Below, in pieces: positions 35,909-53,755 of a stretch of 64,000 bases of DNA (within the stretch, counting starts at the first letter, position 1; each line of letters starts with the position of its first letter). The stretch comes from Mesorhizobium sp. LSHC420B00. Its GTDB lineage: Bacteria; Pseudomonadota; Alphaproteobacteria; Rhizobiales; Rhizobiaceae. The notes under the pieces were generated by a model, which ran no database searches, had not been told where the DNA came from, and saw only the letters and a program-made list of their open reading frames with translations. The DNA lies in contig NZ_AYVY01000019.1 in the NCBI RefSeq assembly GCF_000503055.1, positions 101,925 to 165,924 on the forward strand, written 5' to 3'. The position numbers were made by a program, and so were the translations under genes.

Positions 35909-37045
35909 CTATCCACCACGGACAGAGGGATGCCAAAACGTGATTGCTCTCTCGAAAAGAGCGACCACGCCATAAAAGACCGAACCCGCAAGTGCTGCAA
36001 CTGCGATTTCGGCCCACACCATGTCGATGTTCATCCGCCCGACTTCCGTCGAAATGCGGAATCCCATGCCGACCACCGGCGTGCCGAAGAACTCGGCGAC
36101 GATGGCGCCGATCAGCGCCAGCGTCGAATTGATCTTCAACGCATTGAAGATGAACGGTGCCGCCGCCGGCAGCCGCAGCTTGAACAGCGTCTGCCAGTAG
36201 CTCGAGGCATAGGTGCGCATCAGGTCGCGCTCCATATGGCCGGAGGCGGTAAGCCCGGCGACGGTGTTCACCAGCATCGGGAAGAAGGTCATGATTATGA
36301 CCACGGCTGCCTTGGATTGCCAGTCGAAGCCGAACCACATGACCATGATCGGCGCGACGCCGATGATCGGCAGCGCCGACACCATATTGCCGATCGGCAA
36401 AAGCCCGCGCCGCAGGAACGGCACACGGTCGGCGGCGATGGCAACGAGGAAGCCGGCGCTGCTGCCCACGACATAGCCGAAGATCACCGCCTTGAAGATG
36501 GTCTGCCTGACATCGGCCCCCAGCACCGGCAGCGAGCCGACGATGCGTGCACCGATGGCGCTTGGCGGCGGCAACAGGATGAAGGGAATGCCGGCGCCAC
36601 GCGTCACCGCCTCCCAGATGATCAGGATCCAAGCGCCGAAGATGGCTGGAATGATCAGGCGCAAGGCGGTTGACGCCCAGCGCGACGTCGGGCGAACCGA
36701 CGACAAGACCGTTACGCAGCGCCAGGCCAAAAACCACGCCGCGACGAGCAGCAGATAGAAGGAGCCACGAGCGCTGCCCTCATTGCCGGTTATGCCGGCG
36801 AGCAACATCCACGCCGCGCCGTGCGCGCCAAGGAACAGCAACACCACCCCGATCATCGGTGGAAAGTTGTCGGCCTCGATTGCCATGAGCAGCAAAATGA
36901 AAATCAAAACCGTAGTCGCCATGCCGTAACCGGGCGTAGCACTGACGAGCGGCCAAAGAAGCAGCGCGCCGACAAGAAGGATAAGCGCGGCATATCCTTG
37001 CCAGGATCGGGGGGTGATTGAGGAAAGGCTCAGGAGCGAGCTCAT
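35909..37045 (-). CDS. ABC transporter permease (SsuC/ThiX type, extended)
   Basis: 378 residues. The C-terminal ~230 form a BPD_transp_1 permease with the EAA-like loop MRTYASSYWQTLFKLRLPAA and ISTEVGRMNIDMVWAEI. The N-terminal ~130 residues add three or four extra hydrophobic segments (ALILLVGALLLWPLVSATPG onward) not seen in minimal SsuC-type permeases. Its ATG overlaps the stop of the preceding permease by four bases. It pairs with that permease as a heterodimer. Confidence 0.9.
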   Translation of the reverse strand: MSSLLSLSSITPRSWQGYAALILLVGALLLWPLVSATPGYGMATTVLIFILLLMAIEADNFPPMIGVVLLFLGAHGAAWMLLAGITGNEGSARGSFYLLLVAAWFLAWRCVTVLSSVRPTSRWASTALRLIIPAIFGAWILIIWEAVTRGAGIPFILLPPPSAIGARIVGSLPVLGADVRQTIFKAVIFGYVVGSSAGFLVAIAADRVPFLRRGLLPIGNMVSALPIIGVAPIMVMWFGFDWQSKAAVVIIMTFFPMLVNTVAGLTASGHMERDLMRTYASSYWQTLFKLRLPAAAPFIFNALKINSTLALIGAIVAEFFGTPVVGMGFRISTEVGRMNIDMVWAEIAVAALAGSVFYGVVALFERAITFWHPSVRGG

Positions 37046-37920
37046 GCCGGCCTCCCGCCCATGGCGCGGTCGACAAGGCGCCCAGCAATGCCGACCAGCA
37101 TAACCAGCAAGGCCGCCACCACCGAGCCGGCGACCAGCGCCGACCAGATGTCGATCGTCTGGCTGTAGTAGGCGCCGGCGAGCAATTTGGCGCCGATGCC
37201 GGCGACGGCGCCGGTCGGCAGCTCGCCGACAATGGCGCCGACCAGGCTGGCGGCCACAGCCACCTTCATCGAGGTGAACAGGAACGGCACCGAGGCCGGC
37301 ACCCGCAATTTCCAGAAGGTCTGCGAGGGACTGGCATTATAGGTATGCATCAGGTCGAGATGGGTGAGCTCGGGCGAGCGAAGCCCCTTCACCATGCCAA
37401 CCGCCACCGGGAAGAACGACAGATAGGTCGAGATCAGCGCTTTCGGGATCAGCCCGGTGATGCCGACCGCCGCCAGCACGACAATGATCATCGGCGCCAC
37501 CGCCAGGATCGGAATGGTCTGCGAGGCGATGATCCACGGCATCATGCTGCGGTCGAGCGTCGTCACATGCACGATGCCGACGGCGATGACGATGCCGAGC
37601 GCCGTGCCGAAGGCAAAGCCGAGCAGCGTCGACGACAGCGTCACCCAGGCATTGTAGACAAGGCTGCGGTTCGAGGTGATGCTGCGCAAAAAGGTGTTTT
37701 CGAAAAAATTCACCGCCACCTGGTGTGGCGCCGGTAGCGTCGGCTTCGGTTGTGCCAGCGTCTTGCCGATGAATTCCACAATGCCCGGTGTCAAATTGGC
37801 GCGGCGGTCGAGATCGCGCTGGAACGGCGCGTTGAGGACAACGGCCATGACGTACCAGACGACGACCACGCCCAGGAGGATCGAGGTCACGGGAACGATC
37901 TTGTCGCGAAACGAGTCCAT
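37042..37920 (-). CDS. ABC transporter permease
   Basis: 292 residues with an N-terminal helix (IVPVTSILLGVVVVWYVMAV), a periplasmic loop and the BPD_transp_1 core (AWVTLSSTLLGFAFGTALGI, EAA-like MHTYNASPSQTFWKLRVPAS). Partner of the downstream permease. The DUF559 gene ends one base upstream of this start, so that insertion sits exactly between ATPase and permease without breaking either. Confidence 0.9.
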   Translation of the reverse strand: MDSFRDKIVPVTSILLGVVVVWYVMAVVLNAPFQRDLDRRANLTPGIVEFIGKTLAQPKPTLPAPHQVAVNFFENTFLRSITSNRSLVYNAWVTLSSTLLGFAFGTALGIVIAVGIVHVTTLDRSMMPWIIASQTIPILAVAPMIIVVLAAVGITGLIPKALISTYLSFFPVAVGMVKGLRSPELTHLDLMHTYNASPSQTFWKLRVPASVPFLFTSMKVAVAASLVGAIVGELPTGAVAGIGAKLLAGAYYSQTIDIWSALVAGSVVAALLVMLVGIAGRLVDRAMGGRPA

Positions 37921-38451
37921 CTAGCGATCCTCGGGCGCTTGGCGCCCTCCTCTCCCCAACGGGGAGAGGGTGGCCGGAGCGAAGCGGAGGCCGGGTGAGG
38001 GGGTAGAAATCTTTCCGTCGAGGCAAGCCAATATCGTATCAAGGACCGCTCGACGTTCGGCCAGAACTTCATGGTTCCAGAACCGAAGAACGGAATAGCC
38101 ATAGCCATTCAGCCAAGCAGTTCTCGCCGTATCGGTTGGAGAATCCGCATGCTGACTGCCGTCGACTTCAACAATCAGACCCTTCTCGCGACAAACGAAG
38201 TCCGCGATGAAAAGGCCAAGCGGCACCTGCCTCACAAATTTGTAGCCGTTGAGATGACGTCCTCTCAGTTCCCCCCAAAGCCGGTACTCAGCCTCGGTCT
38301 CGTCAAACCGGAGCTTTCGGGCACGAGCGGTTGCCCCAACATTTCTTTTAGTTGGATCTGTCGGCGCCGCCCCCTCACCCGACCTCCGCTTCGCTCCGGC
38401 CACCCTCTCCCCGTCGGGGAGAGGAGGACCCTCATCCCGCTCAATCATCAT
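37921..38451 (-). CDS. DUF559 endonuclease-like protein inside an inverted-repeat cassette
   Basis: 176 codons as open; the conserved part is about residues 43-150, so the true start is uncertain. RARKLRFDETEAEYRLWGEL and VPLGLFIADFVCREKGLIVE-VDGSQH give the Asp...Glu-x-Asp pattern of the Vsr/PD-(D/E)XK-like DUF559 family, with CLDG near the end. Both ends of the frame (PPLPDGERVAGAKRRSGEG and TPSPGLRFAPATLSPLGRGG) are translated repeat DNA. It starts over the end of the ATPase gene and stops one base before the permease ATG. Function is unknown; a nuclease that mobilises its own repeats is a hypothesis. Confidence 0.85.
   Translation of the reverse strand: MMIERDEGPPLPDGERVAGAKRRSGEGAAPTDPTKRNVGATARARKLRFDETEAEYRLWGELRGRHLNGYKFVRQVPLGLFIADFVCREKGLIVEVDGSQHADSPTDTARTAWLNGYGYSVLRFWNHEVLAERRAVLDTILACLDGKISTPSPGLRFAPATLSPLGRGGRQAPEDR
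37946..38004 (+). repeat. rhizobial palindromic repeat, left copy
   Basis: About 57 bp: a CTCTCCCC..GGGGAGAG hairpin followed by GGTGGCCGGAGCGAAGCGGA then GGCCGGGTGAGGGGG. It is the reverse complement of 38370-38427 with only two differences. This resembles a short repeat family scattered through rhizobial genomes (recalled, not searched). Confidence 0.9.
38370..38427 (-). repeat. rhizobial palindromic repeat, right copy (inverted)
   Basis: Inverted partner of 37946-38004. The two enclose the DUF559 core, and each contributes codons to that frame. No obvious target duplication flanks the pair. Confidence 0.9.
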
Positions 38452-39232
38452 AGCTGTGCCCTGCCCTCAGCCCGTCGCGCACCCGTGCCGCGATGGCCAG
38501 GAACTCCGGCGTCTCGCGGATATCGAGCGGCCGCTTCTTCGGCAGCGTCGATTCTATGACATCGCTGACACGCCCCGGGCGCGGCGACATGACGATGATG
38601 CGCGTCGACAGATAGACCGCCTCGGGGATCGAATGGGTGACGAAGCAGATGGTCTTGTTGGTCCGCTCCCAAAGCTCCAGCAGTTGTTCGTTGAGGTGGT
38701 CGCGCACGATCTCGTCCAGCGCGCCGAACGGTTCGTCCATCAACAAAAGGTCGGCATCGAAGGCGAGCGCCCGTGCGATCGAGGCGCGCTGCTGCATGCC
38801 GCCCGAAAGCTGCCAGGGGTATTTCTTCTCGAAGCCGCTGAGGTTGACGAGGTCGAGGGTTCGCTTGATGCGCGCCGCCTGCTCCGCCCTGGACAGGCCC
38901 ATGATCTCCAGCGGCAGCGCCACATTGCGCTCGATCGTGCGCCACGGATAAAGTGCGGCCGCCTGGAAGACATAGCCATAGGCGCGGCGCTGGCGCGCCT
39001 GCTCGGGCGTCATGCCGTTGACGGAAATGGCTCCCGATGTCGGCTTCTCCAGATCGGCGATGACGCGCAGCAAGGTCGTCTTGCCGCAGCCGGAGGGCCC
39101 GATGAAGGACACGAATTCGCCCTTGCCGATGGTCAGGTCGACATTCGACAGCGCCTGCACCGGACCGTCATTGGTCTGGAAGGTCAGGCCAAGCTTGCTT
39201 GCCGAAACAACGGCTGGCGATGCTCCCGTCAT
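38441..39232 (-). CDS. ABC transporter ATP-binding protein (SsuB/TauB type)
   Basis: 263 residues from MTGASPAVVSASKLGL. Walker A GPSGCGKTT, Q-loop YVFQAAALYPWRT, signature LSGGMQQRASIARALA, Walker B LLLMDEPFGALDE, H-loop FVTHSIPEAV. Drives the NMT1-type importer encoded downstream (two permeases and binding protein), though the DUF559 cassette intervenes. First gene of the operon on the minus strand; the promoter should lie in 39233-39393, which also holds three 15-bp repeats. Confidence 0.94.
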   Translation of the reverse strand: MTGASPAVVSASKLGLTFQTNDGPVQALSNVDLTIGKGEFVSFIGPSGCGKTTLLRVIADLEKPTSGAISVNGMTPEQARQRRAYGYVFQAAALYPWRTIERNVALPLEIMGLSRAEQAARIKRTLDLVNLSGFEKKYPWQLSGGMQQRASIARALAFDADLLLMDEPFGALDEIVRDHLNEQLLELWERTNKTICFVTHSIPEAVYLSTRIIVMSPRPGRVSDVIESTLPKKRPLDIRETPEFLAIAARVRDGLRAGHSYDD

Positions 39233-39313
39233 CGGCCGTAGCCTGTCGCTTCCGGCCACTGCGCCACCGGCCGGAATCCGATTGATTTTACCCCGATGTT
39301 GCTTTCCACTCGC

Positions 39314-53696: not shown

Positions 53697-53755
53697 TCTC
53701 CCCCCTCGTGGGGGAGATGTCCGGCAGGACAGAGAGGGGCGCTGTCCCTCCAACC
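53697..53755 (+). repeat. rhizobial intergenic palindromic repeat
   Basis: TCTCCCCCCTCGTGGGGGAGA hairpin, then TGTCCGGCAGGACA hairpin, then GAGAGGGGCGCTGTCCCTCC. It is a mosaic of short palindromes of the sort scattered between genes in Mesorhizobium and relatives, distinct from the pair around DUF559. Confidence 0.75.

Follow-up and report, generated by a model that had tools for sequence, protein, structure and literature searches.

DUF559 nuclease genes between inverted triplex-type repeats: a Mesorhizobium cassette and a candidate link to the BoxC repeats of Escherichia coli

Introduction

Two families of scattered palindromic repeats are the closest described parallels to the element reported here, a DUF559 gene enclosed by inverted repeats within an ATP-binding cassette (ABC) transporter operon of Mesorhizobium sp. 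LSHC420B00. The element occupies positions 37921..38451 (minus strand) of a 64,000-nucleotide (nt) stretch, contig NZ_AYVY01000019.1, positions 101,925 to 165,924, which is referred to as the window. The first family comprises the REPs and REPINs with their RAYTs (TnpA_REP), HUH tyrosine enzymes that belong to the IS200 group; their repeats bear a GTAG tag. The second, the BoxC/PIT/TM-type repeats, has been known from Escherichia coli since the 1990s. As stated in the available text of PMC4666352, the spread of the latter is unexplained and its authors found no mobility gene nearby; the same text describes a stable triplex in vitro for the single strand only, not for duplex DNA or in vivo.

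On the protein side, the relevant comparisons are the EDxHD/Vsr-like homing endonuclease I-Bth0305I and Vsr, which share the fold of the catalytic domain with the cassette protein. Unlike the gene described here, I-Bth0305I is intron-borne, and Vsr repairs mismatches; we know of no such flanking repeats around either. The closest solved relative, NGO0050 (PDB 3hrl), was deposited as a putative endonuclease-like protein. For the E. coli DUF559 protein YcjD, a PD-(D/E)XK fold was predicted earlier, in a study that also describes YcjD as detecting Vsr (PMC1189080). A preliminary description of the window had proposed that the Mesorhizobium unit is a minimal mobile cassette, comparable in principle to REP sequences and their RAYTs.

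Results

The cassette and its nuclease

The two arms of the cassette, 37946..38003 (3′ arm, plus strand) and 38370..38427 (5′ arm, minus strand), are 58 nt long, inverted, 366 nt apart and 97% complementary with two mismatches, in keeping with the two differences noted previously. Both lie within the open reading frame of 176 amino acids at 37921..38451, so that the N- and C-terminal ends of this frame are translated repeats, also as proposed. Each arm of this repeat, termed type A, consists of a 9-bp pyrimidine/purine hairpin (38405..38423, minus strand; 37950..37968, plus strand), a linker and the mirror purine tail GGGTGAGGGG (38371..38380, minus strand; 37993..38002, plus strand), and both tails face the gene. 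The hairpin core matched the window four times (two arms on both strands), compared to a mean of 0.01 in shuffled sequence. Bracketing was defined as a local inverted match score of at least 18 within 400 nt, a value reached by none of 391 other window intervals. The assumption that the repeat is an abundant rhizobial one had to be abandoned for the exact sequence, which gave 2 matches in the 7.05-Mb genome (at E 0.001, and also at two mismatches); the wider triplex-type motif has 202 matches there. Hairpin stability was dropped as a signature, single-strand folding energies of both arms being no better than those of shuffles (z 0.11 and −1.11). One sub-threshold Rfam match outside the arms (SECIS_3, 24.5 of 63 bits) was taken as chance.

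The identification of the enclosed gene as DUF559 is secure: the frame matches PF04480 with E 2.9e-36 and 124.1 bits (Pfam gathering score 20.6), and the domain extends over 38008..38343 (minus strand). A domain search of the protein up to E 1 returned only PF04480 and a sub-threshold PF18741, with no HUH (Y1) or transposase domain, which sets the cassette apart from insertion sequences. Over 35 sequences E55, D84, E95, Q100, H101 and D107 are invariant, and D97 is nearly so. In the predicted structural model, the predicted local distance difference test (pLDDT) is 78–97 in ten-residue blocks for residues 41–150 and 46–67 for the repeat-encoded ends. The predicted domain matches NGO0050 of Neisseria gonorrhoeae (49% identity), I-Bth0305I (PDB 3r3p, E 6.7e-4) and, weakly, Vsr (PDB 1vsr, E 0.15). 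Conserved residues and fold matches agree in pointing to a PD-(D/E)XK-type nuclease, as suggested initially. Weak PDB sequence matches to unrelated toxin B subunits (E 0.26 and worse) were taken as chance. The domain is under strong purifying selection, with a median dN/dS of 0.051 (15 sequences, 87 pairs). A role as anti-phage defence gene was considered and set aside, as PADLOC models matched the window protein in 0 families up to E 1.

Frequency of bracketing

The window's own genome harbors five DUF559 genes, of which four are bracketed by repeats that differ among them. This arrangement was followed through 105 DUF559 domains from the same genome, the genus and the class, the genus and class loci being the best-scoring matches plus further loci chosen from match lists; five duplicate and four partial domains (coverage <0.6) had been left out beforehand. 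Bracketing was found for 64 of the 105 (own genome 4/5, genus 23/47, ABC site 15/15, class 22/38), compared to 0/391 intervals of the window and 5/192 displaced intervals as controls. Most of the genus domains without bracketing (20 of 24) come from a single clade that occupies one orthologous site; elsewhere in this sample 23/27 are bracketed. A second set of 80 named loci, the best 80 of 571, gave 46 bracketed cases vs. 1/305 displaced intervals, distributed over Alphaproteobacteria (39/65), Betaproteobacteria (2/5), Desulfobacteria (2/2), Myxococcia (1/2), Gammaproteobacteria (1/2) and others (1/4). The preliminary description had left room for DUF559 genes that usually lack such repeats; the flanks scored here reveal frequent bracketing instead.

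Below the cut-off, a gonococcal relative carries such repeats on both sides, farther out (score 12), and two cyanobacterial plasmid genes scored 13 and 10. Some cassettes are more elaborate. One in the window's own genome (L004:1413-2044) has a tandemly duplicated right arm with an N between the copies, which is either real or an assembly join. Cassettes of a second nuclease clade, clade C, occur as tandem pairs at L013 and L025 (genomes G032 and G041), each member with its own inverted repeats. In Legionella anisa (L333:2320-2990), a DUF559 gene lies inside a long inverted repeat (match score 120) with AT-rich outer ends and a GC-rich, triplex-type inner part, which resembles a larger transposon-style unit.

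Repeat types and triplex-type architecture

In a tree of the 105 domains, the arm types go with nuclease clades, as read from the labelled tree, and the bracketed state is clustered, with 16 changes vs. 32.5 in shuffles. Clades D (L009, L135, L194) and E (L001, L002, L195) each combine one arm type with three different sites.

Most repeat types share a pyrimidine arm, a purine arm and a purine tail. The tail mirrors the purine arm, with T allowed in place of A, which corresponds to the layout of a purine-motif triplex. Among 110 left arms, a hairpin was present in 103, and 85 match the mirror at 8 of 8 positions. As the hairpins of this first test were picked with a view of the tail, a second test picked them blind to it. 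For 29 arm types (95 of the 110 arms), agreement was 0.896 with the own tail, 0.825 with the tails of other types and 0.757 with shuffled tails, and none of 2000 tail permutations reached the observed mean. The effect is smaller in the tail-blind test, yet clear. Judged by sequence, the architecture is that of the BoxC/PIT/TM “intrastrand triplex” motif of E. coli, which according to the available text of PMC4666352 likewise combines pyrimidine arm, purine arm and mirror purine tail, is intergenic and has some copies in inverted pairs. GTAG or CTAC occurs anywhere in only 7 of the 110 arms. A lone single copy of the type E repeat, the type that brackets the DUF559 genes at L001 and L002, was observed in the window at 53697-53739.

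Nuclease-less doublets and repeat copy number

The repeat of clade C, type C, has matches in 93 of 99 genus genomes, with up to 61 copies, and its reversed pattern in none. The clade-C nuclease is present in 48 of the 99. Genomes with this nuclease hold a median of 18 type-C copies vs. 6 without it (p 2.3e-7), a count that includes the cassette arms, two per nuclease. Inverted doublets without a nuclease were recognized in 18 of 20 stretches around type-C repeats, among the matches listed for one genome, with spacers of 34–74 nt. In three other genomes, 33 close pairs were counted among the listed copies (12/12, 37/38 and 54/86; nested or overlapping duplicates and one G149 copy left out), all of them with the tails inward and 0 with the tails outward. 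For type A, no dispersed nuclease-less doublets were seen; sorted by eye, 39 of its 49 matches, from 33 genomes, are at the ABC site.

A generic form of the motif was searched in 67 Alphaproteobacteria genomes, each from a different family, and gave 523 matches vs. 4 for the reversed pattern. Of the genomes with a strong DUF559 match (E below 1e-20), 16 of 17 contain the motif, vs. 5 of 50 without such a match (p 2.8e-10); at least 5 copies are reached in 13/17 vs. 2/50. The association persists within genome-size strata.

The ABC site and other insertion sites

On the minus strand the operon reads ATPase (38441..39259), DUF559 frame, permease (37042..37920). The cassette frame shares 11 nt with the ATPase frame, starting within the ATPase stop (ATGATGATTGA), and its own stop abuts the permease start at 37920. 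Both neighbours are intact, and the frame coordinates thus bear out the reported placement of the unit exactly between undamaged genes. Permease orthologues were found in 96 of the 99 genus genomes, and the junction was readable in 95. It contains this nuclease clade, clade A, in 15 cases, another DUF559 gene in one (L126), a CGTC-type element in 57 and other sequence in 6; 16 junctions are empty (6–32 nt). Hence the empty sites anticipated in orthologous ABC operons exist, and the arrangement is not fixed in all relatives; fixation was the outcome that had been named as speaking against a mobile unit.

The CGTC-type element (CGTCATCCTAGGGC..., L039-L133) mostly leaves one A hairpin, and 44 of the 57 alleles keep one or two. 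CGTC repeats have been reported without a transposase (PMC3733652, available text). The DUF559 protein at L126 is divergent (45% identity) and flanked by an unrelated inverted-repeat pair, of which L128 holds what looks like a single copy. At L129 and L132, the junctions of two distant relatives, a further inverted repeat of mobile appearance was noticed (GCTCGCTGCGCTCGCACCTCAGGATGAGG... or its complement).

Cassette, empty and other-repeat alleles alternate among sister species. Presence of DUF559 at the ABC site takes 15 changes on the host-gene tree, with a shuffled mean of 15.0, and well-supported branches force at least 10; distances between cassettes correlate weakly with those between hosts (rho 0.26, 105 pairs). 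Clade A (at least 80% identity) was found at no place but the ABC site in the 99 genomes, and a relative with 63% identity lies elsewhere in genome G005. Because the clade is confined to this site and its presence is scattered over the host phylogeny, we regard the cassette as a site-locked allele that turns over rapidly, which is consistent with homing or recombination between species. A recently hopping cassette is unsupported, given the same confinement.

In 15/15 alleles, the cassette frame begins 8 nt before the ATPase stop, spans both repeats and ends at most 5 nt from the permease start. As the same frame is also open in 56 of the 57 nuclease-less CGTC alleles (which share descent; only L104 breaks it), it is probably the site, more than the cassette, that causes the repeats to be translated. 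The site probably demands a continuous minicistron, be it for translational coupling or against polarity.

Two further sites were read by eye and then checked by inverted-match scores. At the L004 site, the same cassette occurs in L226 and L228 (144/169 and 132/164 residues identical), a different DUF559 gene with other repeats in L227 (76/143 residues identical), nuclease-less doublets in some relatives (e.g. L229-L231, L235, L236) and a 20-nt gap in L232. At the L002 site, the same cassette is present in L205, L216, L224, L243 and L244, and nuclease-less doublets in L237-L242 and L245. The doublet alleles score 17–33 by the inverted-match rule and the L232 gap allele 7. At one orthologous site, another clade has no bracketing repeats in 20/20 cases.

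YcjD and the BoxC repeats of E. coli

The DUF559 protein of E. coli K-12 is YcjD (PF04480, E 1.4e-49, 167 bits), encoded beside the sap ABC operon. In K-12, a decayed BoxC/TM copy touches the 3′ end of ycjD, and TM copy 9 (1,351,239-1,351,204; Table 1 within the available text of PMC4666352) lies about 170 nt past it. Strain KE47 has a complete copy at the 3′ end of the gene, in which the stem contains one mismatch and the tail points toward ycjD. A similar hairpin at the left side of ycjD is more likely the sapF terminator, because it is also present in two strains without ycjD. Among 5426 E. coli genomes, 3365 have a match to the ycjD region. The gap between sapF and fabI (L346, L352-L354) holds either this region, with its BoxC copies, or efflux-pump genes, as in three strains lacking ycjD; these alternative contents are also described in the available text of PMC12817139. 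The stretches of about 5.4 kb taken from the three strains contained no BoxC core toward either sapF or fabI. Such strains were rejected as a clean empty site, as the efflux-pump genes there represent a replacement.

DUF559 and ycjD have 0 occurrences in the main text of PMC4666352. Among the open-access papers listed, none linked DUF559 or YcjD to BoxC/PIT/TM, most subscription papers lying outside this search, and of the 14 papers of the searched open-access library that use the term DUF559 none is, by title, about such repeats.

Discussion

The combined data leave little doubt that nuclease and repeat are partners. On balance, we favour a widespread association in which a DUF559/YcjD-type nuclease gene sits between inverted, tail-inward triplex-type repeats that spread by cutting and repair. 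As to the spreading itself, the layout and copy number of the repeats, the turnover of alleles and the fold of the enzyme lead us to infer that doublets and cassettes may be actively propagated by nuclease cutting and host repair, a proposition for which we see an even chance. That relatives in many bacteria show the partnership too suggests that DUF559 nucleases are the missing partners of the scattered repeat family of E. coli. That such proteins serve in bacteria at large as dedicated mobility nucleases of BoxC/PIT/TM repeats, reading triplex or hairpin ends without a transposase, is a plausible but tentative extension.

Mechanistically, the nuclease would recognize the hairpin or triplex end in single-stranded or extruded DNA and would cut near it. 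Host repair could then fill the break with a copy of a doublet or of the entire cassette. In this way doublets would spread like REPINs, and entire cassettes might, in the manner of a homing gene, reach the corresponding site of other strains. At the ABC site, the cassette would be read as a minicistron that keeps the translation of ATPase and permease coupled. A covalent reaction of the HUH type is unlikely for a PD-(D/E)XK-type fold.

The proposed likeness to RAYTs and REPs stands up well: repeats are inverted and clade-linked, copy numbers track the nuclease and empty sites exist. In both systems a single nuclease gene lies between inverted cognate palindromic repeats, and nuclease-less inverted doublets are dispersed, which was seen here for clade C and in three other genomes but not for type A itself. 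The two differ in the enzyme, the only above-threshold domain of the cassette being the PD-(D/E)XK-fold DUF559 where a RAYT is an HUH enzyme, and in the repeats, which carry a mirror purine tail in place of the GTAG tag. The notion of a minimal mobile cassette is upheld in part. The bracketed DUF559 unit recurs in both sets of loci, while hopping of clade A was not seen in the 99 genomes.

Several observations weigh against the favoured explanation. No movement, binding or cutting has been observed, mobilisation being inferred. Clade A is tied to one site in the 99 genomes, and plain exchange of DNA by recombination among species could account for the scatter of alleles there. Target-site duplications are not legible by eye in the old insertions at the three sites compared. 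Unbracketed domains amount to 41/105 and 34/80, ycjD is without a left arm, and the folding energies of the window arms do not stand out from shuffles. There are also orphans: the generic motif occurs in 5/50 genomes without strong DUF559 and is absent from 1/17 with it, and 14 type-C repeats lie in the genome of the window, which has no clade-C nuclease. In phylogeny-aware, tree-independent pairs, the type-C association is reduced to a trend (7.4 to 0.9, median p 0.065), and the domain tree is poorly resolved, with 57 of 102 inner branches under 80.

Two rival explanations deserve most attention, a caretaker role and neutral hitch-hiking. In the first, the repeats would spread otherwise and block replication, DUF559 would be a structure-specific repair nuclease kept by repeat-rich genomes, and the nuclease gene would be flanked because the repeats regulate it. 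The Vsr-like fold, the purifying selection on the nuclease and the clade fixed at one site all accord with this, as does the Caulobacter DUF559 protein VsrA, which is tied to DNA damage, being required for the SOS response in cells without a cytosine methylase (available text of PMC12907096). We nevertheless regard this explanation as unlikely, since it does not account for the clade-specific repeat types of bracketed nucleases, the same arms and nuclease at different sites, or the co-occurrence of cassettes, doublets and empty alleles at one site. Neutral hitch-hiking, in which replication slippage or recombination of an unrelated kind moves the motifs, preferably into intergenic gaps, and DUF559 genes caught by chance between two of them are then inherited, appears more improbable still. 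Nuclease-less doublets are common in the genomes examined, and the ABC site also gathers CGTC-type and another mobile-looking repeat, both of which would be expected from it; yet displaced control intervals are seldom bracketed, and motif and DUF559 are associated in the set of 67 genomes, which come from different families, as well as within size strata. Finally, that the hairpins are mere expression signals (terminators or a ribosome-binding tail) without a role in mobility is hardly credible: a GAGGGG tail does precede the start codon in several cassettes (L002, L004 and L227, by eye), but the same repeats form doublets away from DUF559 genes, and the arms match over up to 147 nt, far beyond the need of such signals.

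Conclusions

If the partnership between DUF559 nucleases and triplex-type repeats holds true, a second, unrelated enzyme class would enter the REPIN paradigm, and a family that is still named for its “unknown function” would gain a role, possibly as a nuclease that reads triplex-forming DNA. With YcjD, a candidate cognate nuclease is at hand in E. coli K-12, so that a laboratory strain is available for a direct test of the question.
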